Assembly (NCBI GenBank): GCA_016748015.1
Contig: JAAOMT010000098.1
Location: 127,368-191,367, forward strand
Length of the DNA: 64,000 bases
Reading direction: 5' to 3'
Source: Geosiphon pyriformis
Taxonomy: Eukaryota > Glomeromycota > Glomeromycetes > Archaeosporales > Geosiphonaceae
Below are positions 5,842 through 63,065 of this stretch, in pieces. The translations under genes were made by a program, and so were the position numbers. Numbering within the stretch: position 1 is the stretch's first letter; each line of letters begins with the position of its first letter. The notes below the pieces were generated by a model that made no database searches, was not told the origin of the DNA, and saw only the letters and a program-made list of their open reading frames with translations.

Positions 5842-7750
5842 ATAGAACTGGCTGGCTCTTCTACTGGTGGTTTTGGTTCTAGATTAACTGGGTTGGGGTT
5901 CCAGTCTGGCAACAAGAAAAAGGCATGGGTCAAAAGTGTTTACTTTTATAGTCCATTATATAAGAAGGTTAAAAAATCTGAATTCACTATTGGTATTGTG
6001 GATTTGTTAACTGGCCCTCTGCCTACTGTTTTGTTGTATTCAGGTGATAACAATTATAAGGTATCTTGGAAAAACAAAGTCGAAAATAATGAATCCAATG
6101 TAAATGAGGTGTTAGACATTGAGAACTTGAGAAACACAATAGCTGAAAAGACAAGTTATGTCAACTCCAATGCTTTTGAGACAGATAACATGATAGATAA
6201 TACTATTCTGAAAAAGATGCAAACTAGGACTTATGTCTAGAACAACCACCAAAAATGTCTTCTCTCAATTCTCTGAGTGACAATAATACTGAGTTGGTGT
6301 TCCTGACACCTAAGTTTGTTGGATTCAATCAGCTGTTGTCTACTGAATTACATGTCATAAAAAAACAGAGTTTCAAGCCAGTAAAATTGTTTGCTTTAAA
6401 TATTGAGCTTTCAGCAGTATCTGAAAAGACTAATGATGACAAGTTAATTTCTATTAAAAAAATTTTTTATTAAGTAGATGGTTTTTGGGAAGTCTTTACT
6501 CCTTTAAAATTTTCTGGAATTATCAGATCCTTTTTTACATTTGAATTGAGTCTGAATAAGGCTAAAGAGTTGGCAGTTAGTGAGAAAATTCTGGTTAATA
6601 ATAACATAAAAAAATAGTTGACTGTACAAATTGAAAGGTGATCATCAAGGAGATTTCAGTCAATCTTCTCAAATCAATAATTAAGATTATATTTTCTAAA
6701 TTTGGTAAAATTGTTTCAGTTAAGTTGTAATTAATTGGTCTTTGGCAAAAGACTTTGATCGAATTTAAGTTAGTAAATATTGCCAATTTGGTTGCTTCTA
6801 AGTAGTCTGTTCTCATAAGTAAGAATTCAGTGTGTGTTACTTTGGCTGTTGGTGACAAAAAATCATAAGTGTCAAGAGATTATTATCGGACTTTGCTATA
6901 CACTTTGTTAATTGGAATCATGGCTCATGATTTGTCTGATTTATTGGACTTATATGGTAGAAAAACTTGTTTTATTAATCATAATTCTATTTTATATATG
7001 CATAATAGGTGTGTTGTAATTTGTTTTAATGATGAGACATCTAAATTGGCGGCTATTAGCTCTACTTCTGTTTTTAAGAGTGTGAATTTGCACTGGGCTG
7101 GTTTTTCTCTGGCCTGTTGTGCCAAGTATAAGCAATTAGATCATGTTTCTGTTGTTTGTTCATTGAATGGGAATTTTGGTGTTTATGAAAAATAGGTGGT
7201 AACTCCTCAAGATCGAGTCTATTTGGTCAATATATATAAGAAAAAGTAGGCACTTATCGCTTGTCCAGTTTCTTTTGATGGTATTTCTTAGGCAAAAGTT
7301 GTCAGTAGGTCTTCTTTTTTTCCTCTCTTTGGTCAAAATATTTCAGCAGGAAATGGCTTCTCTTCAATGATGAAGCCATCTCTATTAGTTACAATGGAAG
7401 TTAATGACAGGTTTGTCACTCTTGAGTGTAGTCTTGCTAGTCTCATGGAGCAAGTGAGTCAGCTGGCTAAGAGGTTGAATACATTTGGGCCAATAGTTTT
7501 CCAGTCTAGCCCTGGATGTCAGCCATAAGTGACCCCTTCATCACAGGATTAAAAGGCAAATGTAGTGATGAGTAAAAGTTCAGGTGCATCCACTAGTAAT
7601 GTAACTGTTGTGGAAATGGTGTCTTTTGATATGTCTTCAGTGTCTAAAGTGGAAGACAACATAAAATGTCTAATGAAAACAGTATTGGGTCTTTCAGCCA
7701 AAGTTGAACATCTTGGTACAGATTTAATTTTCCAACCCCTTTCTCAATGA
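5842..7750 (+). pseudogene. LINE copy 1 ORF1 (RRM-like and zinc-knuckle protein), degraded
   Basis: This would be the RNA-binding ORF1 protein that packages the element RNA. The initiator seen in copy 2 (ATGGATCTG) is ATAGAACTG here, so the start is lost by G-to-A. Recognisable parts: a Ser/Gly/Lys-rich N-terminus (5,850-6,240), an ALNIELSAVS segment (about 6,400), an RRM-like region (about 6,640-6,850) and then the conserved RDYYRTLLYTL segment. The knuckle at about 7,105-7,155 has pattern C-x2-Y-x4-H-x4-C, with Tyr where copy 2 has Cys. At least two frame changes and many stops are present. It ends in the ATGA overlap with ORF2. Confidence 0.8.
7747..7750 (+). promoter_or_regulatory. ATGA ORF1-stop / ORF2-start overlap, copy 1
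   Basis: CTCAATGAGT: the TGA of ORF1 overlaps the ATG of ORF2 by sharing TG. The same arrangement is present in copies 2 and 3. Such overlaps support termination-reinitiation in known two-ORF non-LTR retrotransposons. Confidence 0.7.
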
Positions 7751-8470
7751 GTGAGTTAATTTGGAAAGTTGCTATGTACAACATTAGAGGTATGAACAAT
7801 TCTACAAAACAGAAAGATATTATTTGTTGGCACAAAAGTATGAATAATTTGGTTTTAATTTTCACTGAAACTATGTTAAGAGGGAAAATTCATTTTTAGA
7901 TTGCTGATAAGTTTAATGGTGTTTATGTTTTTATTTTTGGTTTGAATTCTGGTCACATGAGTTCTGATGTTATGATTGTTATAGACTTTTTTTTGGCAAA
8001 ACATGTATATAAGGTTTTAAAAGTGCTTGGTTGACTCCTTTTCATCAAATTGCTTTTTAAAAATAAACTTTTTGTGTTGATTTTAAGGCTATATGCTGGT
8101 GCTTTTTCAGTGGTTCAATTTTTTTAGGCTGGTAAGATCAACTCTTTTATTGCTAAAGCTGTGAACAAGTCTTATTTCATCATCTTTGGTGGCAATTTCA
8201 ATAAAAATGGTTTTCATAAATGTGTTAGTTACAAAAAGTGCCTTGATTTGGGTTTGGTCAACTTTTTGGGTAGAAGCTCAATTGCAAAGACACCAATGTA
8301 ATGCAATTCTCATGGTGTTGTCAAAGTGATTGATTATATATTTGTTTCTTCTAATTTGGTTAATACAATAGTGAATTGCAATATGGCTAATATTGTGGAC
8401 TATTTTAATACTGATTATAAAGCTGTTTCTGTTTCCATAAGTCTTGGTGGTTTGTTAGATGTGTGGCTGT

Positions 8471-9491
8471 TGTTACCAGACAAAATTAGAGATATTATTT
8501 AGCATGAAATTATCTTTATAATTCCCAACATTAATTAACATATATTATCATTTCAAATTATTACTTATTACATTAGCAAAATGTCCGAAATTACCATGTA
8601 ATTAATAACCCAATTTGTATATAACACAAATGTAACCTAATTGTGATGATCAATTATGCAATACCCCAAACTATGTAATATTCAAAAAGTTCACCGAAAT
8701 TTGTAGAAATTTGCCGAAATAATTAATAGTTCACCGAAATATCTAATAGTTTGCAGAAATAACTTGTAGTTCACCAAAATATATCTTTAGTTTAGCGAAA
8801 TTGTAAAAAAATAGCAAAGTTCAAGTTCATAGAATAGTGTTACAACAAGTTGTATAAAAGAAGAGCTTCTCTTTTCGAGGAAATGTATTTTACTTTAGAT
8901 TTATCACTTAGAACTATTTCTATATACACAAAAAGAAAGAAATATCAAATAATTCAAAAAAAACCAAATTCTTTAATTATTACACTTGGAAAATCTTCAA
9001 AACCCAACTAACATTTTGAAATTGATTAGCTACCAATTTCAGTAAACTGTTAGTGACTTCAGGCCTGAATAGAAAACGTTTCTCTTGATAAAATTCTATT
9101 TCTTTTACATTTCTTTTATTTTATTTTATTTTCTATTATTTTTCTTTTATTTTCTTATTACAATCATTAGAGTAGCCTGCAGACAAGATTCCTGTAGAAG
9201 AGTTGACTTTCACAGCAAAGTAACTACACATATTTAGTAAGCTTCCAGACAAGCAATTCTTGGGAAAGAGTTGACATTTACTACAACATAACTACATAAA
9301 GTAACTGGCACGGAATTGGCCATTCCACTTATAAGCCCAGCAAGTTCAAATTATAGAAGATAATTTGAAGATAAATTCAGTTATCAGAGGTTCAAACACT
9401 TCCCATAGTCATGAATTAACAGCATTACAACAAACATACAAAAGCTAAGAAGAGACCAAAAACCTCCAATAATACTGTCTTTACTATGCAA
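8471..9491 (+). mobile_element. LTR-like insertion inside LINE copy 1 ORF2
   Basis: LINE sequence stops after GATGTGTGGCTGT and resumes at CTGTCTTTACTATGCAAGC, which fits an insertion with a 4-bp CTGT duplication (the exact edges are uncertain by a few bases). Positions 8,471-9,162 match the inverted solo copy at 3,630-4,282. The remaining ~330 bp (9,163-9,491) has no second copy in the window and holds a duplicated ~65-bp segment. It may be an LTR plus the start of an internal region, or a longer LTR. It is younger than the LINE it interrupts. Confidence 0.65.
9171..9300 (+). repeat. Imperfect 65-bp direct duplication
   Basis: Units 9,171-9,235 and 9,236-9,300 share the order AGTA-GC-T-CAGACAAG, AGAGTTGACTTT-like, and AACTACA. 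They lie just downstream of the LTR-like part of the insertion. Confidence 0.6.
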
Positions 9492-10527
9492 GCAAGTTAA
9501 TAAAGATTGTTAGAAGTTTAATATCAAAAATGCCAATGAGGTAAAATGGTGTGAGTTTAGGAATGCCACAGTAGCTAATGCTATTATGTTTTTGGATAAT
9601 TTTGCTAAAGCAGAGGTGTTTTTAGATCTGTATACAATATATGATATTATTTGCAAGATAATAATTTTTTCAGCCAATAGTATATTTAAAAAGAGATGAT
9701 TCAAGAGTTTTAATGGTGTTTTTACCAAAGTGTTTTTTAGGTTTCATAAGCTGAAGTTGCTGGTATTTAAGTTAGTAAAAGTTTTTTATTTGGCTTTTAG
9801 TAAAAATTTTGCTTTGTTGTTAGAGACTTGGGATAGACTTAACAATGATAGTGTGGTAGAGTAAAATTTTTTTTTTTTCAAGTTCCAGTTTTAATGCTGT
9901 TTGTTCTGAGCTGGTTAAGATGAGGAAATCTGATCATTCTTTCAAGTTGTTAGAATCTAGACATGCTAAAAAGTCTCACATCTAACAGGCTATTAACAAA
10001 AAAATAGAAAGTTTTAAATTAGACAAGGATCATATCATTAAGCATGTGCTAGAACATTCTTTTTACAAGATGGTATTAGATCATTTGATGTGGATAATAA
10101 ATTAGTCTTGGAACTTGAGTTGATTAAATCTAAGGTGGATGCAATCATAGAGAGTTGGACTAGAAGGCATCAAGTGGTTGATAATATTTCTGATAATTAG
10201 AATTATTAATATCAACTTTTGAAGTATGTTTTCAATAAAGCTTTTTCTGATATAATGTGTTCAATTGGATCTGATGAATTGTTTGTGATGGTTTCTAATT
10301 TGCCTAATGGCAAAGCTGCTGGCCTCTCAGATATCTCAAATAAGCTTTAAAAGCATTATAATAAATCAGTTTTAGATCTGCTTTTGGTACTTTTTAACTC
10401 TTATTTAGCTTGTAAATCTGTACACAGCTCTTGGAAGGAGACTTGAGTTTCAATGATTTCCAAACTATATGACTAGAAGGGTGTTTTAACAAATACACAT
10501 CTTATTGTTTTAATTAAAACAGCTTAC

Positions 10528-10608
10528 AAGATTCTTTTCAAAATTCTTTTTAATAAGATTCTTTTCAAAATTCTTTTTAATAAGATTCTTTTTAAAATTC
10601 TTTTTAAT
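10528..10608 (+). repeat. 27-bp in-frame triplication inside the RT domain
   Basis: Three consecutive 27-bp units (10,528, 10,555, 10,582) each encode KILFKILFN. Copies 2 to 4 have a single unit here (HKILSKILSDRIS in copy 2). The expansion adds 18 codons to the fingers/palm region upstream of motif A without shifting the frame. Confidence 0.9.
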
Positions 10609-13493
10609 AAAATTTTTTCAGCATGTAGCACTTTTAATGTTTTTTGTGGGAACAATTTTTTGGTTTTGAAGGGCATAATAATTCAGTCTTTCATTTTTGC
10701 AATTGGTTCGGTTATTGAAGATGCTTTAGAAAAAGACCAGAAGCTTTAACTAGTTTTGCAAGACATGTGGAAAGCATACAATTCAGTCAGCTGGAAGCAT
10801 CTTGAGAAGAGTTTGGTCAGAATTAAGATGTGCAACAAATTTATTCAATTTTTCAGTAGTATTTATAAGGATTGTACCAACAGAGTTATGACGGATTTTG
10901 GTTTGATAAGTGGTTATTATATGCATAATAGTTTGGACCAAGGAAAAGTTTTTTTCCCCCTTCTGTAGCACATATTTTATAATTCTCTGTTGTGTAAAGT
11001 CAAGCATCAGAAAAGTATGTGTAGGTATAGGCTGAATTTTCATTTTGTTTTCAAAAGTGGTTGTACTGAATCTCAGGCTGGGCTTTTTTCTTTTTTTGCT
11101 GCTGGTGTCTTCATTAATAATACAATTTGGATTGATAGCAGTCAGAATGCTACTCAACATATTCTTAATATTGCTAATAAATTTTTTCAGATTAATAATA
11201 TTTCAATCAATAATAACAAGACAGTGGCCATTTTCATTAATAGCAGAATCAGTATTTCTTCTCTTTCTATCAGTAACTCACTTATTTCTATTGCTAAAAA
11301 AGATGAATCTCATTAATATCTGGGTATTTTTTTTTTAACTGAAAGTCTTTTGAAGCCTAGTTTAACTAAGATATATTTAGACATTCACTTTTTTACCAAT
11401 TTGGTTCTGAGAAAGGTGGTCTTGAATAAGCAGTTTTTGTATTTGATGTCAACAATTCTTTATTTTATAGTCAGTTATAAAATGCAGTTTAGTTTTGTTC
11501 CTGTTGGCATGTGCAACAAATAAGATGCTTTGATTCATAAAGGCTTAAAGCTTAAGTCTAGTCTGTTTTTTGATTTTTCTAGTGATACAATTTACCACCC
11601 CTCCTTTTATGGCTTAAAATCCTTTGTGCAAATTCAGTCTAAAAGTAAGATTGCTTCTCTTATTAGCTTTGTAAACTCTGGTGGGATTTTGGGCCAATTG
11701 TTTTCTTACAGGTCTTATAACTTGCAAGTTTTTTGTTGGCATCCTGTCTATTCTTTGAATTCTTCTGTTTATGTTTGTGTTAGTGCTTCTAATAATTTTT
11801 TGGCAGGCATGATTCATATTTTTTTTGATTATAATCTGTCTCTTAGTGGTTCTTTGGCCAATTTTTTTCATATTTGTGGTGGAGTTCTTATATCTGTTGT
11901 TCTTGACAAGTCAAAATTTTTCAAGTTTTTTCCTTCTTTTTGACAATATGGTGTTGCATTTGTGGATCAGCTTCATGATTGTCATGATGTTGTCTTTGAT
12001 TGGTACATATTTAAATAGTGGAAAAGGCTAGATTTTTATGGCCCTGTTCCTGAATGGTTCAAGTTTTCTGCAGCATTTCTCAATAATATGACTTTTTCTT
12101 CAACTCCTTCTTCAGTTTTAAATAGTGTTGGTCCTTTGAACATTCTTGGCTTAAGCAGTTTTGTGTTTGTATGTGATTATCTGTTTCAGATTGGTACTAG
12201 TAGTTTATTTGTATATATGGATAGGTCTTTGAAGAATTTAAGCACAGTTGGCTATAGAGTTAACACTACTGTTTTTTTGAAGACATTGATTCGAGTTTGG
12301 GCATTGGTATTTTAGGTTTGATGTTATCTACTTTGGCTAAAATGCAAGCTATTGTATTGGTCCTGAAGTGTGTTCCTCTGTTTAGTTTTGTGCATTTGTT
12401 TTCAGATAGTCAATCTGTTTTAAATGTTTACAAGTCAGAATTGGATCTGGTTTGTTCTGATTTTTATAATTGGTGTTGGATTGAGTGTTGACATATTGTT
12501 GGTGTTATTCGCAGTAAAAATTTGAATGTTAGTTGGTACAAAATGAAAGATTACTCTGGCATTTTAAGAAATGAATGTGCTGATGTGATCACTAGTAATG
12601 CTTCTCTGTCTGATTGGTTTCTCCCTCCTTGCTTGAGTAAACACTTTTTGGTAGCTGATGGTGGTTTTGTTTTTGGCAATTTTAGACATTTTGTTTATGA
12701 CATTTATCATTCTATTTGTTGCACACATTGAAAGGTTGATTCTGGCTTGAAGTTTTTGGCTTGTGATTTGCTTTCTGAAGTTGATTGGCTCTACTTTTTG
12801 TTAATATAGCATTCTGATTTGTATATAGCTGCTGGTTTTATCAGCAGGCTCTTGGCTAATGTACACACTTATTTTATGAAAGCTTTGTATTATTGGTTGT
12901 CTGTGGCTGTTCGTAAATGTTTTTATTATAAATGTTATTTCAGTGTGTTGTGCTTATACTGTGGTGAGATAAAAATATCAAATCATGTGTTTTCTTATAA
13001 GATTGACAAGTTTGCTTGGTGTCAGTTATTGGAATCCCATGTGAATTCTTAGAGGTCACTTTCTGGTTTTTTCCATTTTTTTTCAAGTGTGCTCTAGTTA
13101 TTGTTGTTCTGTGTTTCTGATTTCTTTGTATCAATGGCTCTTTTTAAGAATTTTGTTTTTGATGATTGGTTTTATGAGACTGTTTCCATCTTTTGTGATC
13201 CCAAAATTGCTTGTCTGAAGATTGTTAAATTTGTGCACTCCTTTAGTTTTGCTTTTAAGGATAGTATTTGGTTAGTTCATACTAAATATTATGTCTATAT
13301 AAAAAAAAATAGCTTGATTCTTTTTGATAACTTAGCTTTCATATTAGTTTCTGGTTTAGCTTTGGGATTTTCTGCTGGTGTAGTCAAAATGCTTGGCATA
13401 GCTAAGGTTTTTGGCATACATTTTGGCTTTTGCAAATCTTGTTTGTTTTTTTTTGGAGTAGGTAATTTGGTTTTGGTTTATATAGCTGCATAA

Positions 13494-13625
13494 TATTGTT
13501 CTGATCAGTTCGAATGACTGGTTATGTATAGAAAAAACATAATTCACACCTAATATAGATTATTTTTTTGATGTATAGAACTAGACAGTGTTTGGATTTT
13601 ACTCATTAAGCAAATTAAAAAAAAA
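13494..13625 (+). other. LINE 3' UTR and A-tail, copy 1
   Basis: About 120 bp after the ORF2 stop is conserved with copies 2-6 (GAATGACTGGTTATGTATAG, then TTTGGATTTTACTCATTAAG), ending in an A-run. It is the likely recognition tail for target-primed reverse transcription. Confidence 0.75.
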
Positions 13626-14559
13626 TTTACTATTTAAAAAATTCAAATACTTTGGGCTTTCAACTTTTTAACACTTATTTTTAAAAACTTAACTATAATT
13701 TTGAAAAGTTATATAAAACAATATTTATTTAAAAAAAAATTTCTTAAATTAAATTAGTCTTTGAACTTGCTTATTAAAAAAACACAAAAACAATATCTAA
13801 TGTATCAAAACTGGTTACCAAAAATGTATAAATATTAAAAGCAAGTTAACAAAATAATATTTACTATTATACTATTTTATATTTTTAATTTAATTTTAAA
13901 CTTCAAAATAATCTTTAAATTATTTTTTTAAAAATAAAAAATCTTATTAATTTTTACAGTATTACTCATAAAAATATAGAAATCATATTAGTATATAAAT
14001 TAGCCAATCAGAAGTAAATATAGTAAAATATGGAATTCCAGAATTTTTCTTAGAGAAATTACAAGATTTTTATATGAGAAATTACAGAATTCCAGAATTT
14101 TAAGATTCTTCTTAAGAAATTGCAGAATTTCAGGAATTTTAGAATTTCTGATGTGAAAAATTGAGAAATTAAGAAATTTCAAATATGTATATATAGCAAT
14201 AGCATTAAAAGCAGAAAAAACAGACTTTTTAGTTTGGACTTTTTTTCCTATCTATTCACTAATCACTTCAAGAATAGTTTATATTTGCTAAAGTAAAATC
14301 ATCAAATTATTAATAAAATACTTATTTATATCCAATTCATATTGTTACTATTTGATTAAAAAATATTCATCAAACTTTAATTATCAATATTTTATGTTGA
14401 TAGCTGCTGATACTTAACCACACTAGAACAATAACTTTTGATTATGACTATTAATGAAATACTAACTTAATTGCTTTGGCTTAAATTCTTCATTTTTTTT
14501 ATTTTTTTTTTTCTTTTATTTGTTTTTTGTTGTTTACTTATTGATTAAAAAATCAATGC
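13626..14559. other. AT-rich DNA with an imperfect GAAATTACAGAATTCC repeat
   Basis: No gene. Positions about 14,030-14,180 carry four to five imperfect direct repeats of a 25-35-bp unit built on AGAAATTACAGAATTCCAGA. The short open frame across it is low-complexity Phe/Leu/Lys and is not taken as coding. Confidence 0.5.
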
Positions 14560-15790: not shown

Positions 15791-16008
15791 TTATTAAATA
15801 TTAGTTTGAAATTATCAGCAAAATTCAGCTCTATATTATGTACTCAATATATTAGTAATTTATAATAGCAAAGACCAAATTAGTAAAATCAGTTTTTACT
15901 TCAGAATTAATTTCAATTATATATTTAGGAAATTATAACCATAATTAATTAGTCTAAGAAATAATAGACAACAAGGCTATAAGCAACCCCAGTTCATATG
16001 CAGTCCTT

Positions 16009-16333
16009 ATTGACCATTTATTTTACAGGGACAAGCACAGGGGGAACAAGTTCAGTTATTTAGGACCTCAATTTCACGTTTCCCTGGTTATGAAGGTAAC
16101 TTTTCTTGAATGATAATTGTATTCTGTACTGGTCCACTTTACATAGCTCTTTTACGTCAATAGCAATTGAGAAGTATCTGGATGGGCACGCACCAGAAAA
16201 GTGGTTATACAAACACTTTTTACAACTCTATCATGATATTATCCTCGTCAAGCCGCCATTCAACGATGTTTGGAGTTCACTAGATGGGGCTTGGCGCAGA
16301 AGATTTCGCGAGGTAATCAAGTCACGCAATGGG
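16009..16333 (+). repeat. Left arm of a ~325-bp inverted repeat
   Basis: This arm matches the reverse complement of 18,278-18,598 with scattered substitutions and short indels, from TTGACCATTTATTTTACAGG to TCACGCAATGG. The arms enclose about 1.94 kb. They may be long terminal inverted repeats of a DNA element or an inverted duplication of an exon. No clear target-site duplication is seen. Confidence 0.85.
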
Positions 16334-16348
16334 AAGGAGAATCACTAG
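16029..16348 (+). CDS. Two-exon fragment of an unrecognised protein (left arm)
   Basis: Exon 16,029-16,095 follows a TTTTACAG acceptor. Intron 16,096-16,163 has GTAAC and CAATAG ends. Exon 16,164-16,348 continues in frame across the join (RFPGYE then AIEKYLDGHAPEKWLYKH) to a TAG. The product is basic and Trp-rich near its end (WSSLDGAWRRRFREVIKSRNG). The frame is intact here, but the copy in the right arm has a stop and lost residues. I do not recognise the family. Upstream exons are not identifiable because the sequence to the left is the AT-rich gag relic, so this may be an exon captured by a mobile element. Confidence 0.4.
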
Positions 16349-16475
16349 CCTCATCGTCGCTTCCATTCTCAACATTATCTTCGTCTGCATATCGAGTAAT
16401 CCCGTCTTTGTCGTCTTTATTGGATTCGAAATGACCACCGTCGGATTCTTTTCTTTTACGCTTTCCTGCGGATAC
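16317..16475 (-). CDS. C-terminal exon, basic NLS-like then acidic tail, unknown protein
   Basis: Read on the minus strand after a CTGTAAACAG acceptor, an open 53-codon exon begins VSAGKRKRKESDGG. It continues with an Asp/Glu/Asn-rich stretch (DDKDGITRYADEDNVENGSD) and ends SHCVT before a TGA that lies just inside the left arm. KRKRK looks like a nuclear localisation signal; the acidic tail is typical of nuclear or chromatin-associated proteins, but this is inference. It has no transition-type decay, unlike neighbouring LINEs. Confidence 0.45.
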   Translation of the reverse strand, partial: VSAGKRKRKESDGGHFESNKDDKDGITRYADEDNVENGSDDEASDSPSHCVT

Positions 16476-16568
16476 CTGTTTACAGTTAAGTGTTTAGTAG
16501 GGGCCTCAGTAATTATATATTCTTAGATTTGAATAACAATGAAGAAGACCTGCCTTTCCCTCTTTTTT

Positions 16569-17165
16569 CTAGTCTTCCAAATCGTCAACTTCACTTTCAT
16601 CCTCTTCATATTCATTTTCGACTTCAGGTGAGTCGAAAGTCTCACACTATTAAATCTTAAACAGTAGTATGATAATAATTGGTGTAAATATTGCCAGTTA
16701 CTCTGAATATTGAATAAAAACGTGGGAAGAAGATATTAAATATCTTACGATTTGCTCTGCAGGATGCCTGGCTTCACGCCGCTTTGAGCTCAGTTTGATC
16801 TCGTTATCTTCTTCAATGGCGATCTATGCAAAAAAAGAATGGCGGATATAAACTTATAAGAACAGCCACGGATTGCAGATTCTCTCTTGCCATGTTCGGT
16901 ACTGATCTGATTGTTGTATAATTATCCTTTTACAAATATTTTTCCTGTTGACTTGGACTGATACTCCGAGGGTTCGCACCACTTCTTTGTTTATAATTAC
17001 CTCCGTTTACATCTGTAACTTGATAATACTAGCGATTGGCAATGCTTCGAGTAATGAGTCCTAGCCGTCGAATTTGTATTCGATTCACACCCACTTCTTC
17101 AAATTTGAGAATCAGATCGTTCCAGTAAGCACGACTGCTCTCAATCTTGTTGGTGGCAGAATTAG
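16569..17165 (-). pseudogene. Pieces of an unknown spliced gene (acidic segment and NKIESSRAYWNDL segment)
   Basis: Minus-strand coding-looking pieces, right to left: SATNKIESSRAYWNDLILKF and EEVGVNRIQIRRLGLITRSIA (about 17,030-17,160), then a stop. Next come YYQVTDVNGGNY in the same frame, another stop, IAIEEDNEIKLSSKRREA (about 16,760-16,820) ahead of a GTAAGA donor, and VENEYEEDESEVDDLED ending in TAG at 16,569. Exon joins cannot be fixed from the sequence alone. The pieces probably belong with the exon at 16,317-16,475. Confidence 0.35.
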
Positions 17166-17319
17166 TAAAACCATATAATCAGCATCCCATCATTAAACAT
17201 GAGCGACGCAACCAATGATGAGTAAGTAGAAACTTAATGCTCCCAACCAAGTAGATACGTGATTGGGAGTTTCACTATTGGTCATTCGCAACAACGATAA
17301 CCTAAGTAGAAACTTAACT
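17128..17319 (+). repeat. Direct repeat, copy a (with one hairpin)
   Basis: AGCACGACTGCTCTCAATCT through CCTAAGTAGAAACTTAACTT matches 17,829-18,020. It contains the hairpin CTCCCAACCA/TGATTGGGAG at 17,240-17,269. Confidence 0.85.
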
Positions 17320-17345
17320 TAGCAAGGGGATAATGTATTTACCTT

Positions 17346-17875
17346 TCATGAACACAAGAGGCGAGTGCAACGATGTCCGCGTGTTGAGAGTTTTTGCATC
17401 TTCTCATTAGTGATAGATAGACCACCTCCAGATTCCACGTCCAATTTATCCATTCGAACCATCTCAATCTCCACATTGTCCTCTAGCAATTCTTTTAAAT
17501 TCATTTGATCTATTTACACGCTCTTAATTGAGGACAGATTCTGAAGTATTCCGAGAGTTCCAATAAATGGAAATTCTTGAAATTGAGCCAATATTTCGCT
17601 AGAAGGTAAACTCTGTAGCAAGATAAAATTTGATCAGGTCCGTCATTGAAGGAGTGGTTGACATTTCAAATATATACCTTGACCATATTCAGCACTACGT
17701 CCGTTGCCTCGTCTATGGCACTTCGTCGTGAGATGAGCTTTGAAGGTGCAAGCATCTTCAGTGTCTCCTCCGTTACGAACTCCTTTGCCCTTTTGTTAGC
17801 AGGACCGAGTCGGTTGGTCATAGGACGAAGCACGACTGCTCTCAATCTTGTTGGTAGCAGAATTAATAAAGCCAT
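17346..17875 (-). CDS. Two-exon fragment of an unknown protein
   Basis: The upstream exon (17,678-17,875) reads RPMTNRLGPANKRAKEFVTE to DEATDVVLNMVK. A 65-bp intron (17,613-17,677, GTATAT..CTACAG) joins in phase to SLPSSEILAQFQEFPF and GILQNLSSIKSV. One in-frame TAA at about 17,514 precedes MNLKELLEDNVEIEMVRMDK and the end at 17,346. A one-base shift near the end would give HADIVALASCVHE and a GTAAAT donor, suggesting one indel. The first ~50 bases duplicate the start of the NKIESSRA segment at 17,128. Composition looks coding; I do not recognise the family. Confidence 0.4.
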
Positions 17876-18200
17876 ATAATCAGCATCCCACCATTAAACA
17901 TGAGCAACGCAACCAATGATGAGTAAGTAGAAACTTAATGCTCCCAACCAAGTAATACATGATTGGGAGTTTCATGATTAGTCACTCGCAACAACGATAA
18001 CCTAAGTAGAAACTTAATGCTCCCAACCAAGTAATACGTGATTGGGAGTTGTCGTCGTTGCCGCTAAAATCCTAAGAATAAGCGACGCAACCAATGATGA
18101 GTAAGTAGATACGTGATTGGGAGTTTCACTATTGATCACTCGCAACAACGATAACCTAACTTAATGCTCCCAACCAAATAGATACGTGATTGGGAGTTGT
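17829..18200 (+). repeat. Direct repeat, copy b, extended by a hairpin cluster
   Basis: Copy b of the 17,128 repeat is followed by reiterations of a ~70-90-bp piece. Complete hairpins with a 10-bp stem (one mismatch) and ~10-nt loop lie at 17,941-17,969, 18,020-18,048 and 18,167-18,196. A half copy with only the right stem arm ends at 18,123. The stem arms CTCCCAACCA and TGATTGGGAG resemble MITE termini. Confidence 0.8.
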
Positions 18201-18277
18201 CATCATTGCCGCTAAAACCCTAAACTTTTAAAAACTTATATCTTTTTTTACTTATACCCTTTTTCCAAATTGACGCT

Positions 18278-18598
18278 TCCATTGCGTGACTTAATTGCCC
18301 CGCGAAATCTTTTGCGCCAAGCCCCATCTAGTGAACTCCAAACATTGTTGAACGGCAGCTTGACAAGAATAATGTAAAGTTGTAAGAATTGTTCGTATGA
18401 CCACTTTCTGTTGGGCGACTATCCAGACACTCCGCAATTACTATTAACGTAAAAGAACTGTGTAAAGTCGACCAGTACAGAATACAATTGTCATTCAAGA
18501 AAAGTTACCTTCATAACCAGGAAAACGTGAAATTGATGTCTAAAATAACTGAACTTGTTCCTACTGTGCTTGGCCCTGTAAAATAAATGGTCAATAAT
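18278..18598 (-). repeat. Right arm of the ~325-bp inverted repeat
   Basis: Inverted partner of 16,009-16,333. The exon frame seen in the left arm is broken here: a stop replaces the Gly-Glu codons early in exon 1, and bases are missing in the HAPEKW region. Confidence 0.85.
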
Positions 18599-18900
18599 AG
18601 GAGACGCCGAACGGATCAAGGACTGCGAATGAACTGGGCTTGCTCTTGGCACTGAGACGAGTTGCCTCTGGCCTTCGCTGACTTAAGAAGGAGCCCACCG
18701 GAGGAGTTCCCCATAACTAGCCCAACAAGTTGCCAGATCGCTTAGGTAGTTGCATCGGCGAGTTGCCCGACTCCTTTCCTATCCTCTAGCCGCTTTGAAA
18801 TATCAAAAGCAAAAATAGATTGAAGTTTTCAGGGGTGGCACAATAAAAGCAGATTGTTTTGTAGGAAGAAAAAATTTTCAGCTTACGTCACCAATCGCCA
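18599..18900. other. GC-richer flank, no gene recognised
   Basis: This is the most GC-rich stretch in the window (for example CGAGTTGCCTCTGGCCTTCG). Each of the six frames I read has stops and no motif I know. It ends abruptly where AT-rich DNA begins. Confidence 0.4.
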
Positions 18901-19906
18901 AGCCACAAAATGTGGTTTTTTAAAAACAATATTTAGAATAATAACTTTTTAAAATAACAATATTAGTTTGGTTATAGTAAATAAATATAATAAACATAAT
19001 TAAATAAAAATTAAACAAAATAAGTAATAAGTAAAATTATTAATATTATAAAACAATATCAAGTTAACTATTTAGTTTTATTTTATTATATAATTTATAA
19101 ATTTAGCTTAAATTTTTTATAATTTTGTTTATTATAAAAATATCTATTCTTATTTTTATTATACAAAATTTTTTTTATAATTATGTTAATATTAAAACTG
19201 TTTTAATTGCTATATTTTATATATAATTATATTTTTAAAAAAAAATTTATTTTTATTTTTTTTATTATAAAATTTTTTTGGTAATTACTCTTATATTATA
19301 TATTATATTATATTTTAAATAAGTTTTAAATTAATTTAGAGTTTCTTGTTAAAGTTTTTTTGATTTTTAGAGATTATTGAATCTTTTGGTATTTTGTTTT
19401 AAATTACATAAGCTATATTTATTTTTGCAAATATTAATAATTTTATTAATGTTATAATAAGTATATAGTGTTGTTTTATCTGATTTAAATGACTGATTTA
19501 TGCTTAATTAATTTTATATATTATATTAAATTGTGTTTATTAAAAATAAAAAATAAAAAATAATATTTTTATATTTTAAATTTTGGTTTTATTTAATTTT
19601 TTAATTATTTAACAAGTAAAATTTAATTATTATTTAGGATAAATTAGTTAGTCATATATTAATTATATATAATTAATTATTTAAATTAATTAAAATTATA
19701 TTATATATTTATTTTTATTATAATAATATTATTAAAAAAAATTTATAATATAAAATTTTAAAATATTAAATATATTTTGTAATTAATTAATTAAATAAAA
19801 AAATTATAATTAATACTTAAAAAGTAATTAAATATTTTAATAAAAAATTAATTATTAAAAAATAAAGTAATAATTTTATTTTTAATACAAAATAATTTAA
19901 AAAAAT
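18901..19906. other. AT-rich spacer
   Basis: Almost pure A/T runs with no coding signal. Nothing else seen. Confidence 0.6.
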
Positions 19907-26607: not shown

Positions 26608-26740
26608 TATTGTTTTGATTAGCTTGAATGGCTGGTCACTTGTAGAAAAAGCATGATTTGCTTCTAGTTTAGATTATTTATATGATATATAGTCTTAAGT
26701 CATGTTTGGATCTCACTCATTAAATGTAATAAAAAAAAAA
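26608..26740 (+). other. LINE 3' UTR and A-tail, copy 2
   Basis: GAATGGCTGGTCACTTGTAG and TTTGGATCTCACTCATTAAA are conserved with the other copies. It ends in at least ten A. Confidence 0.8.
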
Positions 26741-27194
26741 TAATTTATTATGATTTTTTATAATTAACAATAATATAAAATTAATAATTTAATATATTTT
26801 TACATTATTTATATATATTTTAATATATTTTTAAACATATTTAAAAACAATCAAATTTTTTTAATTTATTATTAAGTTTTTAAAAAATATTAATAATAAT
26901 TTTTAGAAACAATAAAAAAATAATTAATATTAAATTATATATTATTATTAATAAAAAATAAAATTATTAATTAACATAAAATTATTTTATATATTTTTTA
27001 TTAACAATTAGTATATATTATTATTTTAAATTATTATTTATTATTTTATTAAATTATTGAATATTATTATTAATTAATAATTACTTTTTATAATCATTAA
27101 AAAACTTCTTACAAGTAAATTAAATGAGCTTTAAATAATAATAAATAGATATTAATATTATTAAAAAAAAAAAAAAATATTAAGAAGAAAAAAA
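26741..27194. other. AT-rich spacer between LINE copies 2 and 3
   Basis: Only A/T runs. No gene and no obvious target-site duplication that could be told from chance in such sequence. Confidence 0.6.
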
Positions 27195-27310
27195 CTTCTT
27201 TTTTTCTTACATTCACAAATTCTCAAAAAGTGCTTTTCTGAAAAAAAAGTTTTTTATTGTATTTTCCTTGTTAGTATTTCACAATTTTTTTTTCTAATAA
27301 CCCATTTTTC

Positions 27311-34339: not shown

Positions 34340-34438
34340 AACTATTAAGCTTTCCTTTACCCAAAATTTCTAAAAAAAGTCAAAAAAGTTTTTTAAAAAA
34401 AGTTTTTTACTATTCAGTATGATAAATTTAAATCATTT

Positions 34439-40758: not shown

Positions 40759-40890
40759 TATTATTCTGGTTAATTTGAATGGCTGGTTACATGTAAAAAA
40801 GGCAAATTTATATTTAATTTAGATTATTTGTATAATATATTATACTAGACAGTATTTGGATCTTACTCATTAAATATTAATAAAAAAAAA
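40759..40890 (+). other. LINE 3' UTR and A-tail, copy 4
   Basis: GAATGGCTGGTTACATGTAA and TTTGGATCTTACTCATTAAA, then nine A. Confidence 0.78.
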
Positions 40891-55010: not shown

Positions 55011-55054
55011 AATTACTACTCCCTTATTGGTTTACTATTTTCTATATCTGTTTT

Positions 55055-57760
55055 TTTTATGAGTAATAATGATTTAGATCAAGACAAGATTTTCTCTCCA
55101 CTCTTTTAAAGAATCTTCTATGATCTGCTTTTGTGTAAAGTTAAAAGACATAAGCACTTGTGTGGATACAGAATTGATATTAGGTTTGTGGCAAGATCTG
55201 ATAGAGTTGAAGTGACTGGTAAAAAAACTTTTTTTGGTTGCTGATGCCTTTGTTAATGATACAATTTGGGTTGGAAGTTGTCAGACTTCTATTCAATATA
55301 TTTTAAACATTGCTAGTAAGTTTTTTAAGATCAATGACATTTCGATTAATAATTACAAAACAGTGGCTATTTCAATCAATCAAAATGTTAAGTCTGCTTC
55401 CTTGTTGATTAATGGCTTGCCAATTTCCATTGTAAAAAAAGGTGAAACATACAGATATCTGGGCATTTTTTTGTTTACTGAAGACCTTTCTAAACCTAGC
55501 TTGGCTCAAACTCATATTAATGTTAGGTTTTTTTTTAATATAATATTAAAAAAAACTATTACAAATAAACAATTTTCATACTTGGTTTTGGCTGTTTTGC
55601 AGCCAATAATTAGCTATCATACACAATTTAGTTTTGTCTCTTTGGCTATATGTTGCAAGTAGGACACTTTGGTGAGAAAGAATCTCAGATTTAAGACTGG
55701 CTTATCATGTGATTTTTTCAGTAAGGCCTTATATTATTCTTTTTTGTATAATGTGAAACTTTTTAAACAAGTGCAATCTAAAAGAAAATTAGTCTCACTG
55801 ATTTCCTTTTCTAATGTCTGTGGCATTCTTGGGTGTTTGTTTGAGCACAAATTTTTGGATTTACAAGTTTTGAAGTGGTTTTCTTTAAACTTCTTACAGT
55901 ATTTTGTCAAATTGAAGGTTAGTCCTGTAAATAAAATTTTGATTAGTGTAGTGAAGATTCTTTTAGAAAATGAGTTATCTTTGGCTAACAATTTGCCCAA
56001 TGCTTTTTGTGGATCTGGCAAATTTCTAATGTCTGGCATCTTTAATTATCTCTTGTATTATGACTCTGTTTTTTCTTTGAAGCATTTTGGTATTGCTTTT
56101 GGTAATAGGCTTTTGGACAAAAAGGGGAGGGTAATGGATTGGAAAATGTTTCGGTGGTAGAAAAAATTGGATCCAAGAGGACTTATACTTTACTGGTTTA
56201 CTCTGGCAGCTAAGTTTATAAACAAACATGTCTCTTTGAAGGCTGAGTCTACTAATGCTCTTAATTTACCAGTGTTGAGTGTTTTAGATTCTGAAGCATT
56301 TTCTGATGTCCATAGTAGTCTGATGGAGATTTGGTTTAATTGTATTGAGATTTACACAAATGAGTTGTTGAAAAGTGCTGGTTCTGCAAAAATGGCTAGT
56401 GGTGCAGCTGCATATTTTCCAGCTACAAACATGGGTGTTGGGATTAGAGTACATGGGCTTTTGTTTTCTATTCTGGCTGAATTGCAAGCCATTGCTTTGG
56501 TCTTGGAGTGTATTCTATTTTCTTGTGCTATAGTTTTGTATTCGGACAGCCAATTCATAATTAATACTTATGTTTCAGAAATTGCATTTGCCATGCCAGA
56601 TTTTCACAATTGTTGCTGAATTGAAAGATCACACATTACCAATCTTATCAAGAGTAAAAACATTTTGGTTGAATAAATGAAAATTAAGGGACATTTAAAG
56701 GTTTCAGGCAATATTAGAGCTAATGAATTGGCAGAAAATGCCACCTGTTCTTTGCTCTTTTTGCCTGTTGGGGGTCAGAAATGATTTTTGGTTGCTGAAA
56801 ATACTGTTGTGTCTGGTAATACCAGACATTTTGTTCAAGACATTTATCAGTTAATCTGCCATGCTCGTTGGAAGACTGGTCCTGGCTATAATGTCATTTT
56901 AAATACTGTGGTTAATATAATAGATTGGGCTACTATTGTAAAAATTTGGCATCCTGACTCACATATGCTCTTTGGGTCTACTAGCAGATACTTTGGCTAA
57001 TATGTGCACTTATTTGATAAAAGCAATACATAGGTAGTTACTAGTAGCAGTTAAGAAAAGGTTATATAATAAGAATTATTTTAGAGTGTTGTATTTGCTG
57101 TGTGAGAATGTAGAGTTGTCTGATCATGGTTTTGGTTATTTTGGTAATGTCAGTTTCTATGAAGACATTTTAGAGGAGGTAGCTAAAAAATGGGTGTTAT
57201 TGGTAGACCTTTTTTGTCTGTCTTTATTAGCTGTTTTACATTTACTATTGGCGTGTTCTTGAGATATGAGTCTGTATACTACTATATGTAAAAGTTTTGT
57301 GTTAAAAAATTGGCAGGCTGAAGCTGTTTTGATCTTTGAAGGAAAGAAAAAGGCTGATTTGGCTCTTGTTAATTATGTTAGATTTGTGGTTAAATTGTAC
57401 CACACCAAGGTCTGGCTTGTTAAAATCAAGCATAGAATAAATATGAAAAAAACTGGCTTAATCAAAAACAATGGTGTAGTTTTAGGCTTGTTTTGTTGTT
57501 TGGTATCTTTGTTGTTAGATAAAGTTGTTCATATGGAAATTTTTACTGTCAATTTTGGTAAACGCAAATTGTGTTATTTTTTTTTTGGTTTAGGTAGTAA
57601 TGCTTTTGTTAGTATAAATATATAGTGTTGCTTTGTCCAGTTTGAGTGGCTGGCCATATGTAGTTAGTGCATGAGCTGTATTTAGTTTGTTCTACTTAGT
57701 TTAGTTCTATGTACTAGATAGCAGTTAGGTTTTACTTGTAAAATGCATAATAAAAAAAAA
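55055..57760 (+). mobile_element. LINE copy 6, 5'-truncated
   Basis: The copy begins inside RT motif B (NDLDQDKIFSPL) and runs through the end of ORF2, the 3' UTR (GAGTGGCTGGCCATATGTAG) and an A-run at 57,752-57,760. 5' truncation is the normal product of incomplete target-primed reverse transcription. With copy 7 it forms a subfamily: both read KTFF where copies 1 to 4 have other residues just before motif C. Confidence 0.9.
55074..57623 (+). pseudogene. LINE copy 6 ORF2, C-terminal part
   Basis: Motif C reads DAFVNDTIWVG (55,243-55,272; first Asp to Asn). The RT thumb/connection region is well kept (55,300-56,160). RNase H (56,345-56,770): YTNELL where TDGS is expected, LAELQAI, YSDSQFI, NIRANELA (Asp to Asn), so two of four metal ligands are lost. 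A frame change near 57,000 precedes the finger (YLLC..DHGF, about 57,090). The C-terminal domain (57,266-57,623) is open. Few stops compared with copies 4 and 7. Confidence 0.88.
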
Positions 57761-58017: not shown

Positions 58018-59847
58018 TAATAGAACTGGTAAACTCTTCTGTTAATGGTTTTGGTTTGGGTTTGGCTAGTTTAAAAACCTGTTCAAACACCAAGAAAAAA
58101 TGTGCAGAGAGTATTTATTCTTACAGTATGTCTTATAAGAAACTAAAAAAGCTTAATACAGATATCAGTATAATCAATTTGTTTATTGGTTTTTAAAGTC
58201 TTAAAGATATTAGTGTCTTTAATAAAACTCTGTAGTGTTTTGAAATAACAAAGTTAATAAAAAAGCCAGTAATATTAGCAGTTTATTGGATATGAAAAAT
58301 ATGAAGAATATAGTGACTAATAAAATTAACTATACAAATTCAAATAATTTAATAGTCATCAATAATATGGATAATATTATATTGCAGAAAACTCACACTT
58401 AAACATATGTATTGAGTTATTTACCAAAAACTTTTTTATTTGTAAATTTTAACAATAACAACAATATTTTATTGCTTCTATTATTTAAGTTTAATAGTTC
58501 TAAACAACTTTTATTAGTTAAGTCATATGTGTCAAAAAAATAGAGTTTTAATTTGGCAAAATTATTTGCAATAAATATTGAGTTGTTTATCATTTTTGGC
58601 AAAATTAATAGTAATAAATTATTATGTGTAAAAAATATTTTCTATTGTGTAAATAGTTTTGGAGAAGCTTTTACTTTCTCAAAGTTTCCAAAAATAATTA
58701 AATATTCTTTTACATCTGAGTTGAGTTTAAAAAAAACTAAAAAGATGGCTGTTAGTAAGAAAATTTTAATTAATAATAATATAAAAAAACAAATAACTAC
58801 ACAGATCAAATCATAATTATTAAGAAGATTCCAGTAGATTTTCTCAAAATTGACAAGATTATTTCAATTAAAATACAGCTTATTGGTTTATGACAAAAGA
58901 TTCTAATAGAATTTGAGTCATTAGATAGTGCTAGTTTGGTTGTATCTAAGTAGTTTATTCTTATAGAAAAAAACTCTGTACATGTGGTTTTGGTAATTAG
59001 TAATAAACAGTTGTGGATTTTAAGAGATTTTTATTGAGCTTTGTTGTATATTCTGCTAATTAGCACTACTGTTCATGATTTTTTTAATTTGTTAGAATTA
59101 TACAGTAAAAAACTTGTTTTATTGACTGTAATTCCAATTTATATGTATATAATAAATGTGTTATAATTTGTTTTGTTAATGAAGCATTCAAAAAAACTGC
59201 TATTAGTTCTATTCTAGTTTTTAAGCATGTAAATTTGTGCTAAACTGGTCTTTCTTTGGTCTATTGTGCTTAATATAAACAATTTGGTCATATTTTTGGT
59301 ATATGTTCAATAAATAAGAATTTGGGTAATTACAGTAAACAATTAGTTATCTTTTAAGATTAGATGAATTTATTAAATATATAAAAAAAAAATAGGCATT
59401 AATTATTTGTCTGGTCTTATTTAATAAAAAAACTTAAACTCAAATTGCTGAAAATTTTATTTCTTATGTAGTGTTTTCAGTTTTTCTGCTGAATTCTTTT
59501 AATATGAATAATAGATTTGTCACTTTGAGTATAATTTTACTAGTCTTATAAAACAAATTGACAAGCTGACTAAAAAATTAGATGCACTTGGGCCAATGGT
59601 TTTTTAGTCTAGCTTTGAACATTAACTGTTGGTAATTATTTTATTACAAAATCAAAGAGCAAATATAATAATAAGTAAGAGTTTAAGTGTATTTATTAGT
59701 AATAAAACTGTTGTGAAAACAATGTTTATAGATTTTTTTGTAGTTTCTAAATTGAAAGACAGTTTAATAAGTCTTTCAAATATAATTATAAGTCTTTTAA
59801 CCAAAATAAACAATCTTGTTTTAGGATCAAGATTTCTTTTTTCTTAA
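58018..59847 (+). pseudogene. LINE copy 7 ORF1, heavily degraded
   Basis: The start is ATAGAACTGGTA, as in copy 1 (ATG lost). Recognisable pieces: NGFGLGLASL, SYSMSYKKLKK, LFAINIELFIIFGK (58,560-58,600), FGEAFTFSKFPKIIKYSFTS, then the RRM-like and RDFY regions in shifting frames. The knuckle trace is at about 59,260-59,310 (CA-Y-KQFG-H). C-terminal LLQNQRANIIIS, then LISLSNIIISLLTKIN, corresponds to copy 4. The overlap site has decayed to AATAAC (ATG and TGA both lost). Numerous stops. Confidence 0.75.
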
Positions 59848-62800
59848 TAACTAATCTTGTTTAAAAGTTTGCTATATGTAATATTAGAGATATTAATGTT
59901 TTTGCTAAGCAGAAAAATATTGTTTATTAGCATATAGATTCAAATAATATGGTTTCTATTATTATTAGAACAAAATTAAGGTCTATTATTAGGCTCTAGA
60001 TTGTAAACAAGTTTAATAGAATGTGAATTTTTACATCTGGTTTAGATAAAAACTTTTTGAAGCTAGAGTAATAATTATTATAAACAATTCTCTGGCTTAA
60101 TATGTTTCTAAAATAGAAGAAGTTTTTGGTTATGTTGTTTCTGTATGGTTTTTTTTCAAGAACAGATTTTTAATTATGATTCTTGGTTTGTATGCTGGTG
60201 CTTCTGCTGAGGTCAGATTTGTTTTAGCTTTAGAAGTTAACTTTTTTATAGCTAAAACAGTTAACTTCAGTAGTTTTGTGGTTTTGAATAAGAATTTTAA
60301 CAAAAATAGATCTTGAAAAAGTGTAAATTTTAAGTTCTGTTTAAATTTAAATTTGGTCAATGCATTTAGTAGATATTTATTAGTTAATGTTTCTATTTGA
60401 AGCAACTTAAAGAATGTTAAAAAGATCATTGATTACATTTTTGTAAATAAAGATTTGTTATCTGCAATTGCTAATCATAAGATTAAATTTGCATTTGAAT
60501 TTTTCAATACTAATTACAAGGCTGTTTTAGTTTTGATTAGTTTAAGTAGTCTTTTAGATGTTTAATTGAATAATATAAAAAAGCAGTCTAACAAAAATCA
60601 CTGAAAGTTCAGAATAAAAGACATAAATAAAATTAAGTGAACTTATTTTAAGAAATATTCTTCTAATAAATTGTTAATTTTGACAAATATGTTTATAAAA
60701 ACAGAGATTTCTGGAAATTTAGATTTAATATGAGAAGTATTAAAAAAGGTAATAGTAAATTTAGTTAACAAAATTTTTTCTAGACATTGGTATAATATTT
60801 TTAATTGCTCAAGGAACAAACAGTCATCAAAATTTTTTAAGTTAAAATTGCTAACTGTTAAAATGGCTAAAGCTCTAAAGTCAAAAAATGTGCTTAAGTT
60901 GGAATTTCTATTTCATACTTAATTGGCCATTAATAAAAACAAAGCTTTGAAGATATAAAACTTGATTCAGAATAGCACCAAGTTAATAGAAATTTTCAAC
61001 TGCTTGTTTAATATATAAAAAAGTTATCTCAAGTCCAAAATACATAAATTTAAAACTTCTGAAAATACTGTTATCAAATGTACAATCAAGAAAAAAATGA
61101 GAAACTTCTGTTCAGACAAAAGATAGATAATTAAAAATATATTAAAAAAGTTTTTTTATAAGATGGTGTTTGATTATTTAATAGTTGATAATAAATTGGT
61201 TCTGAAATTTAAGAACATTAAGATTAAAGTTAATACTATTATAGAGAGTTAGACTAAAAAGTGTGTGGTTTTTGAGTTTTTGTCTGAACTTTAGACTAAT
61301 CAGTATGCTCTTTTAAATCATATGAACAATAATGCATTTTCAAATGTTATAAAGATTATCAATTTTGAAAAGTTGGTACAGATGTTTAAAAATTTGCCAA
61401 ATGAAAAAGCTGTTAATTTAAGTGATATTTTTAATGAATAGTAGAAACATTGTAATAATGATATGCTTAGATGTTTTTTGAGTCTTTTGAATATATGTTT
61501 GACTTTGAATATAGTTTTGGCTTTGTAGAAAAAAGCATAAGTTTTAATGATTTCTAAGCCTTATAATTAGAATGAAATCTTAATAAACATTTAACTTATT
61601 GCTCTAATTGAGATAACCAGGAAAATTTTTTCTAAGATTTTTTTAAATCGAATTTTTTTTGCTTATAGCTGTTTTAATGTGTTTTGTGGAGACAACTTTT
61701 CTGTCTTGAAAAATATTTTAACACAATTACTTATTTTTACTGTCAGATTTATAGTTAAAGATGTTTTAAAAAAGAACAAAGAAATTTGGTTGGTTTTATA
61801 AAACATGTAAAAAATGTATAACTCTGTTAACTGAGCTTATTTAAGAGCTAATTTGTGATACATTAAAATATGTAAAAAGTTTATTGGTTTTTTTGGTATT
61901 ATTTATAAGAATAAAATAAATAAAATGATAACAAATTTTGGTCTTTCTGGTAGTTATTAGGTGCATAATGATCTGAATTAGAATAAAATGTTCTCTTCTT
62001 TTCTTTGAAAAAATTTTTATAATCTTCTTTTATATAAGGTAAAGAAACATAAACATTTGTGTAAATACTGTATTAACACTAGTTTTGTGGCTAAGACAGA
62101 TAAAATTGAAATAAAAAATAAAAAAACTTTTTTTTTTGCAGCTGGTATTTTTGTTGATAACACTATTTGGATTGGAAACAGTCAGGCATCTACACAATAT
62201 ATATTAAATATTGTCAACAAATTTTTTTTGATTAATAATATTTCAATTAACAATAATAAGACTATGACTATTCTCATTAATTACATAGTTAAGAATGTCA
62301 TTTTGAAGATCAGTAATTTGCTGATTTTAATTGCTAAGAATAGTAAACCACATAGATACTTAAAGATTTTTTTGTTAACTGAAGATCTATTCAGATTTAG
62401 TTTGGTTAAAACTTACTCTAATGTTAGGTTTTTTTTCTAATGTGGTGTTAAGAAAAGTAATTACTAACAAACAGTTCTTATATTTAATATTAGCAGTTTT
62501 ATAGTCTATTATTAACTACTGGTCACAGCTTAGTTTTGTTTTGTTTTATTTAATGTATGTTATAAATAAAATACTATGATTAAAAAAGATCTCAAGTTAA
62601 AAACCAATTTGCTAAGAGATTTTTTCAATAAGGCTTTGCATCATCTATTTCTATATAATTTAAAGTCTTTTAACCAAATTTAGATTGAAAGAAAATTAGC
62701 TTTATTGGTTACTTTTTTTAATGCTTCTAGTATTTTTAAGCATTTATTTGAACACAGATTTTTGAATTTGCAAATTTTAAGGTACTTTTTTAAATTCTTT

Positions 62801-63065
62801 GCAATTTTTTGTTAAGCTATATGTCAGTTTAGTAACCAATTTTTTAGCTAAAATAGTAAAAATTTTTTTACTTAATGAGTTATTTATTATAAACAATTTG
62901 CTCAATACATTTTGCAATCTGAAAAATTTTTTAATGTTAAATATTTTGGGTAAATTCTTATATTATAATTCAATGTGCTCTTCAAAATAATTTAGTGTTA
63001 TATTTGATAACAGATTTCTGGACAAAAAGAGTAGTATAATGAATTAAAAAACTTTTTATATAATT
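59844..63065 (+). pseudogene. LINE copy 7 ORF2, EN-RT part only, degraded
   Basis: Endonuclease traces: CNIRDINVFAKQK (about 59,880), LNKNFNKN (GGD lost), IDYIFVNKDL (about 60,430) and the FNTNYKAV site where DH is expected. RT: motif A region VYNSVN followed by a stop (Asp to Asn, about 61,818-61,835), motif C GIFVDNTIWIG (62,146-62,175; second Asp to Asn), KPHRYLKIFLLTED. Thumb traces continue to about 63,050 (LDKKSSIMN, stop, KTFY). RNase H and beyond are missing from this strand. Confidence 0.82.

Follow-up and report, generated by a model that had tools for sequence, protein, structure and literature searches.

Organization of the locus

The window, by which we mean the whole stretch of DNA analysed, spans 64,000 nt (C305:127368-191367), and relatives of its elements were taken from the same 124.7 Mb assembly. 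Its GC content is 27%, CpG o/e falls under 0.3 in 103 of its 128 bins, and no tRNA and no Rfam match at the gathering score were found in it. The following features were recognized:

600-2700, minus strand: member of a BTB-type gene family, labelled from the preliminary description and a reading of L053; ordinary mutation spectrum
5842-13632, plus strand: LINE copy 1 (extent from self-alignment; spectrum); ATA at the start
8470-9045, minus strand: insert inside copy 1, an inverted copy of 3713-4277 (75% identical)
16000-18920, no strand assigned: GC island, a low-copy repeat with CpG o/e of 0.92 and inverted ends at 16007-16332 and 18279-18597
20040-26867, plus strand: LINE copy 2 (self-alignment, RNase_H)
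27200-34108, plus strand: LINE copy 3 (self-alignment, spectrum)
34400-41015, plus strand: LINE copy 4 (self-alignment, spectrum)
55066-56619, plus strand: CpG-depleted LINE 3' remnant (self-alignment, base composition)
58403-63051, plus strand: LINE copy 7 (self-alignment; CpG o/e of 0.00-0.04 across 58-64 kb)

All LINE copies in the window lie on the plus strand and share ~64-73% identity in self-alignment. Copy 2, which has the highest GC among them and a CpG o/e of 0.17 (3 kb measured), gave a Pfam match to RNase_H and an RVT_1 match below the cut-off; these matches, together with the order of the ORFs, suggest the LINE label for the window copies. Between 20040 and 41015, three LINE copies, each from a different subfamily, stand head to tail on the same strand with a spacing of ~7 kb. 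An 18-nt tandem array (1-576) adjoins the BTB-type gene, and two short fragments of BTB-type genes gave no Pfam match. The GC-island repeat has inverted ends of 320 bp, contains repeated units in its interior, shows no ORF of 150 codons, and occurs mostly on one other contig (C314:832-951 kb).

Stop codons, zinc knuckle and start codon

ORF1 of copy 4 (34400-36245) can be followed in a single frame through 13 internal stops. At eight of these, one or more of the better copies carry a Trp or Gln codon, in agreement with the at least eight Trp/Gln-to-stop changes claimed for this ORF in the preliminary description. The other five were off-pattern (aligned residues Glu, Asn, Asp, Ser, Ile, Cys, Arg, His, Gly, Phe, Ala or Thr), so the earlier wording that all the changes are C:G to T:A is right in substance but too strong. 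Across the RT-RNase H stretch of 14 copies (window copy 3 and 13 relatives), 158 stops were found at codons with a non-stop majority form, 149 of which replaced TGG (68), CAG (36) or CAA (45). For the 24 cases of CAA to TGA, the likeliest reading is an ancestral CGA changed at either base. Because TGG>TAG/TGA and CAR>TAR need non-CpG changes (CGA>TGA apart), a model restricted to CpG does not suffice, and changes outside CpG form the core of the pattern.

Read by eye from the translations, the zinc knuckle is retained as C-x2-C-x4-H-x4-C in copy 2, with the second Cys replaced by Tyr in copies 1 and 3 and both the second Cys and the His replaced by Tyr in copy 4, which bears out the Cys/His-to-Tyr losses noted earlier. 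The DNA pattern of the knuckle matched nine times in the window, too near the 5.5 expected to be informative. The reported change of the start codon from ATG to ATA was likewise seen, copy 1 having ATA at 5842 (ATAGAACTG) compared to copy 2 at 20043 (ATGGATCTG).

Mutation spectrum of the LINE families

The window copies are too divergent from each other to polarise changes, and closer relatives from the same genome, placed by tree, were used. Spectra were counted as departures from the column majority, excluding sites without a base at the majority threshold. Clade A consisted of window copy 3 and 13 relatives (17 loci fetched, four excluded as outgroup); the copy 1 clade (eight sequences, seven of 11 fetched loci used) and the copy 4 clade (six sequences, five of 10 fetched loci used) were chosen by tree. 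Each DNA search scored its top 40 among 204 to 3287 candidates (10 of 10 for the GC island), and heavily decayed copies are therefore under-sampled.

Clade A contained 1615 C:G>T:A changes and 164 transversions compared to 328 and 303 in the BTB control family (Fisher p = 3e-89), confirming a decay dominated by C:G>T:A without an equal share of transversions. Per-site rates were 0.123 for both C>T and G>A, 0.020 for A>G, 0.010 for T>C and 0.0004-0.0044 for each transversion type, and the spectra of the copy 1 and copy 4 clades agreed with this. Within the window, copy 1 (9500-12500) had 105 C:G>T:A changes (16.6% of counted C/G sites) and 10 transversions in 1949 sites; copy 3 (29900-32900) had 132 (14.0%) and 14 in 2641 sites, with nine stops at codons with a non-stop majority form; and copy 4 (36800-39800) had 48 (10.4%) and six in 2324 sites. 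The decay had been ascribed to copies 1, 4 and 7, but all three window copies measured (1, 3 and 4) display it.

Ancestral CpGs are marked in clade A by 95 mixed TG/CA columns, and 105 of 1306 CG/TG/CA/TA tips were still CG. C>T singletons were spread evenly over the codon positions (90/69/67), whereas the third position held 71 of 117 A>G changes and 44 of 81 transversions; C>T thus looks post-insertional and the other changes partly older. Copy pairs outside the six closest pairs had 165 C:G>T:A, 13 A:T>G:C and no transversions in common, and the changes common to non-closest copies appear to be mostly parallel, independent hits. CpG o/e did not separate RT loci whose frames are long and open (eight loci, 0.10-0.70) from RT loci with stops (eight loci, 0.16-0.52).

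For a young LINE-like family, 22 copies were used of 40 listed (the best 40 of 2817 candidates), each 93-96% identical to the query copy. Together these held 982 C:G>T:A, 26 A:T>G:C and 24 transversions from the column majority, with 22-79 C:G>T:A changes and 0-3 transversions in any single copy. The odds were 38.6 (CI 20.8-71.8) relative to the near-normal GC-island copies and 37.8 (24.5-58.3) relative to the BTB family, giving a ~39-fold excess of C:G>T:A over transversions in young LINEs compared to same-genome controls.

Control families

BTB-type copies were counted in two sets, one of 21 copies (20 of the 39 other scored copies) and one of 31 (30 of the 39), in which 10 lower-ranked copies were added. 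The smaller set, with the 328 C:G>T:A changes and 303 transversions given above, displayed no CpG or 5'-base preference, and the larger had 478 and 382, a ratio that selection may shape, the copies being coding. At identities of 77-90%, 29 of the 31 copies had ordinary spectra. The other two, L123 and L128, had raised C>T (0.114 and 0.091) and low CpG o/e (0.36 and 0.43), and may be mildly decayed gene copies drawn into the decay. By majority count, the CpG rate of the family was 0.050 compared to 0.040-0.058 in other contexts; majority counts were used here, the rule-based ancestral call forcing C over T and being unsuitable for this family (CpG 0.273 versus 0.137-0.207).

Three copies of the GC-island repeat, including that of the window, had together 36 C:G>T:A changes and 34 transversions when mutually polarised over ~950 sites. 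In the fourth copy compared (C314:850733-852859), which sits in a CpG-poor stretch of ~6.5 kb, 252 of 766 C/G sites had undergone C:G>T:A (33%) and two of 1194 A/T sites had become G/C, with 26 transversions in 1960 sites (1.3%), within the sibling range of 0.5-1.8%. Because one of the four copies is hypermutated and three are near-normal, it looks as if the same sequence decays or not by location, the determinant being the state of the locus or its chromatin and neither the type of element nor the number of copies by itself. The preliminary description regarded the BTB gene and the GC island as spared and the decay as repeat-directed. Both are indeed ordinary in the window, but both are themselves repeats and one GC-island copy is hypermutated; likewise the LINE repeats do decay, but most copies of these two other repeated families are ordinary or near-normal.

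Sequence context and RIP indices

CpG was the most affected context, followed by TC and CC and then by AC and GC. In the young family the rate was 0.220 at CpG compared to 0.054 at other C (CpA 0.053, CpC 0.067, CpT 0.046), with 0.080 at YCH and 0.028 at RCH. Clade A displayed the same order outside CpG (TCH 0.174, CCH 0.123, ACH 0.093, GCH 0.089) and no CpA preference (CpA 604 of 5256, 0.115; CpY 861 of 6869, 0.125; p = 0.08), and its CHG rate was 0.167 versus 0.208 at CHH, with which clades B and C agreed. The decayed GC-island copy had 0.59 at CpG, 0.45 at TCH, 0.28 at CCH and 0.14 at both ACH and GCH. The effect of a 5' pyrimidine in the young family had an odds ratio of 3.05 outside CpG and 1.36 at CpG (interaction z = 5.6). 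Estimated roughly from CpH rates and the retention of CG, the CpG:CpH hazard ratio was ~5.0 in the young family, ~5.5 in clade A and ~4.7 in the GC-island copy, a similarity that suggests one process acting at differing dose.

Over 32 intervals of 2 kb the composite RIP index ranged from -1.02 to 0.08 and was above zero in six, whereas TA/AT exceeded 0.89, the customary RIP threshold, in 22. The check by RIP indices is therefore divided, the AT-rich composition blurring both measures. Such indices decide little in DNA so AT-rich, and the argument rests on counting contexts directly.

Strand, clustering and dose

That the changes fall on both strands, as first described, was confirmed in clade A (C>T 659 of 5359, G>A 956 of 7748; p = 0.96). 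The young family displayed no strand asymmetry after context stratification (z = -0.8), no strand tracts (528 compared to a null of 518, sd 16.7) and no clustering (369 compared to 374, sd 11.9), and the decayed GC-island copy had no strand runs (124 compared to 122.3 expected). Dose formed a continuum over the 22 young copies (from the best 40 of 2817 candidates), with CpH rates of 0.022-0.100; CpG and CpH loss were correlated (r = 0.85) and transversions rose weakly with dose (Spearman 0.34, p = 0.12). The lack of tracts and clusters, the graded doses (within the limits that this sampling sets) and the CpG-CpH correlation agree with changes gained one by one over time, and not with a processive or single burst.

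Genome composition, methyltransferases and repair

Of 56 bins (500 nt each) from seven of eight arbitrary 4 kb stretches of the genome, 43 had a CpG o/e below 0.3. The stretch L096, with 20% GC, had a CpG o/e of 0.94; AT-richness and CpG loss are therefore separate. A single full-length 18S copy was found (L089, region of C320:1045481, with 5.8S). Where the Rfam consensus is conserved it carries changes, several of them CG>CA or CG>TG (by eye, part of the alignment). It matches the AML2 primer with one mismatch and contains the site of the fungal ITS1F primer. It is probably a decayed rDNA copy, and functional 18S copies may be missing from the assembly.

DNA-methyltransferase genes are present, the PF00145 profile giving 10 matches at seven places in the genome. 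Motif VI was readable at six (C318, C355, C327, C96, C307, C346) and was ENV in each; we take C307 and C346 to be DNMT2-like by motif. The triplet EQT at this motif, presumably the hallmark of RID/Masc1, was not seen at these six loci, and we found no mention of it in one review. BAH matches adjoin the methyltransferase at C355 and C327, the second below the Pfam cut-off. A C5-methyltransferase gene at C318:788280 has a diverged second copy 32 kb off (C318:820713), with an ordinary mix of changes. Three methyltransferase fragments matched only general C5-methyltransferase models in NCBIfam, and a PDB search with the C318 fragment returned DNMT1-type, DNMT2 and bacterial enzymes. One exon with the motif GINPG, which we assume to be the TDG/MUG hallmark, gave a single TDG/MUG-like match (25.2 bits, cut-off 24.3). 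In arbuscular mycorrhizal (AM) fungi, of which this may be one, DNMT1, DNMT2, DNMT5, DIM-2 and RID are reported (PMC8298701).

Discussion

Dense cytosine methylation of silenced repeats followed by gradual deamination is the explanation we favour, with a probability of roughly 60%. Silenced repeats would carry dense 5-methylcytosine, near-fully at CpG and at a lower level outside it with a preference for a 5' pyrimidine, and the methylated cytosines would deaminate to thymine over time and go unrepaired. Each copy would then decay independently, on both strands and almost only by C:G>T:A, with CpG lost first, then YC, then RC. From the sequence patterns we infer methylation as the cause, its extension to non-CpG sites in this genome, and a deamination that would be spontaneous rather than enzyme-driven. 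Saturation of CpG with methyl groups, regardless of the base before it, would account for a 5' pyrimidine effect that is weak there and strong elsewhere; a deaminase that always prefers YC would not be expected to give this contrast. Deamination of methylated cytosine, already named in the preliminary description, fits better than RIP, but CpG methylation alone cannot yield the listed stops.

Several observations bear against the methylation account. Counted over all C, the ~39-fold excess is large if 5mC deaminates spontaneously, a process that in mammals is of the order of ten-fold at CpG. RT loci with open frames and with stops overlap in CpG o/e, and a TDG/MUG-like exon appears to be present, so that a loss of G:T repair finds no support. 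Symmetric CHG maintenance is not indicated, CHG being no higher than CHH. The putative C5-methyltransferases (PF00145, seven places, two DNMT2-like by motif) are consistent with the account. In Rhizophagus irregularis, a possible relative, 32.5-49.5% of cytosines are methylated by LC-MS (PMC8298701) and transposable elements (TEs) have high CG methylation (PMC8647823).

The same excess, high for passive deamination, would come more readily from a RIP-like mutator driven by a methyltransferase (RID, DIM-2 or DNMT1-like) acting at a small dose in each generation, on every context and preferring CpG and YC, and so would the GC-island copy with 33% of its C/G sites changed at a transversion level (1.3%) no different from its siblings (0.5-1.8%). 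Several C5-methyltransferase matches, including the unclassified C318 gene, could supply such an enzyme, and AM fungi are reported to retain RID (PMC8298701). However, doses are graded, changes are independent and without tracts, CpA is not preferred, and all six readable motif VI are ENV with the EQT of RID/Masc1 not seen; we regard this mutator as unlikely, although to be taken seriously. Classical RIP, a premeiotic, homology-sensing and CpA-directed process, is improbable. It would share with our data the C:G>T:A changes of repeats on both strands, the TA/AT values above 0.89 in 22 of 32 intervals and a composite index slightly above zero in six of 32, but CpA is not preferred, that index stays at or below 0.08, there are no tracts or clusters, and 29 of 31 BTB copies at 77-90% identity are ordinary and three of four GC-island copies near-normal. 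The RIP raised in the preliminary description, taken in its usual sense, is thus not upheld.

The low GC of the window (27%) and the 43 of 56 sampled 500-nt bins poor in CpG would also suit a general AT-biased mutation of any neutral DNA across the whole genome. This is more improbable still: same-genome repeats with more transversions per site have C:G>T:A and transversions at ~1:1, L096 keeps a CpG o/e of 0.94 at 20% GC, and the BTB family has neither CpG nor TC preference by majority count. The least probable of the readings is an APOBEC-like deaminase that edits the cDNA, with a strand bias, as it is synthesized by reverse transcription. APOBEC3 enzymes target TC and CC, which the TC and CC preference outside CpG resembles, but strand asymmetry and strand tracts are both absent, a GC-island copy in whose repeat no long ORF was seen carries the same pattern, and the TC effect is small at CpG.

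The decay resembles ascomycete RIP in its C:G>T:A changes on both strands of repeats and their strong excess over transversions, but is not classical RIP, differing in the lack of a CpA preference, a composite index of 0.08 at most, graded, independent and tract-free changes, and the sparing of most of the gene duplicates tested. In plants and mammals, methylated TEs lose CpG gradually by 5mC deamination and are left with TG/CA mixtures. The LINEs described here share this gradual passage of CpG into TG/CA mixtures, but decay in all contexts, with CHG not above CHH and a larger excess over transversions. Portions of a study of basidiomycetes and Tuber describe a TE bias of CpG type attributed to methylation followed by deamination, with TpCpG in Microbotryum and with CpA as well as CpG mutated in Tuber (PMC4352252). 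CpG is strongest here too, but all non-CpG contexts are also affected (~5-7% in the young family, 18-25% in clade A), and the preference for a 5' pyrimidine is weak at CpG. The highly methylated TEs and very high total 5mC of Rhizophagus irregularis resemble the methylation proposed here, and the consulted parts of both reports hold no mutation spectrum that we could find (PMC8647823, PMC8298701). Gigaspora margarita and Mucoromycotina are reported to show no detectable RIP signatures (PMC8647823). A description of all-context TE hypermutation in such fungi was not found in the literature, of which parts of texts were covered.

Rather tentatively, and with more doubt than belief, one may think of a slow, all-context mutator linked to a methyltransferase, which would mark CpG and YCH, raise C to T to ~39 times normal relative to transversions, follow the state of the locus and not homology, and be poorly visible to CpA-based screens, in a lineage possibly near the fungi that are reported to lack RIP signatures.

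TE decay in fungi has mostly been screened by CpA-based RIP indices. Decay as strong as that described here leaves the composite index near or below zero, and 'no RIP signature' elsewhere may therefore hide a major mutational force. The context-specific C>T dose of each copy is a possible readable proxy for non-CpG methylation, and the GC-island repeat at four loci, one decayed and three near-normal, offers a natural experiment on what marks loci.
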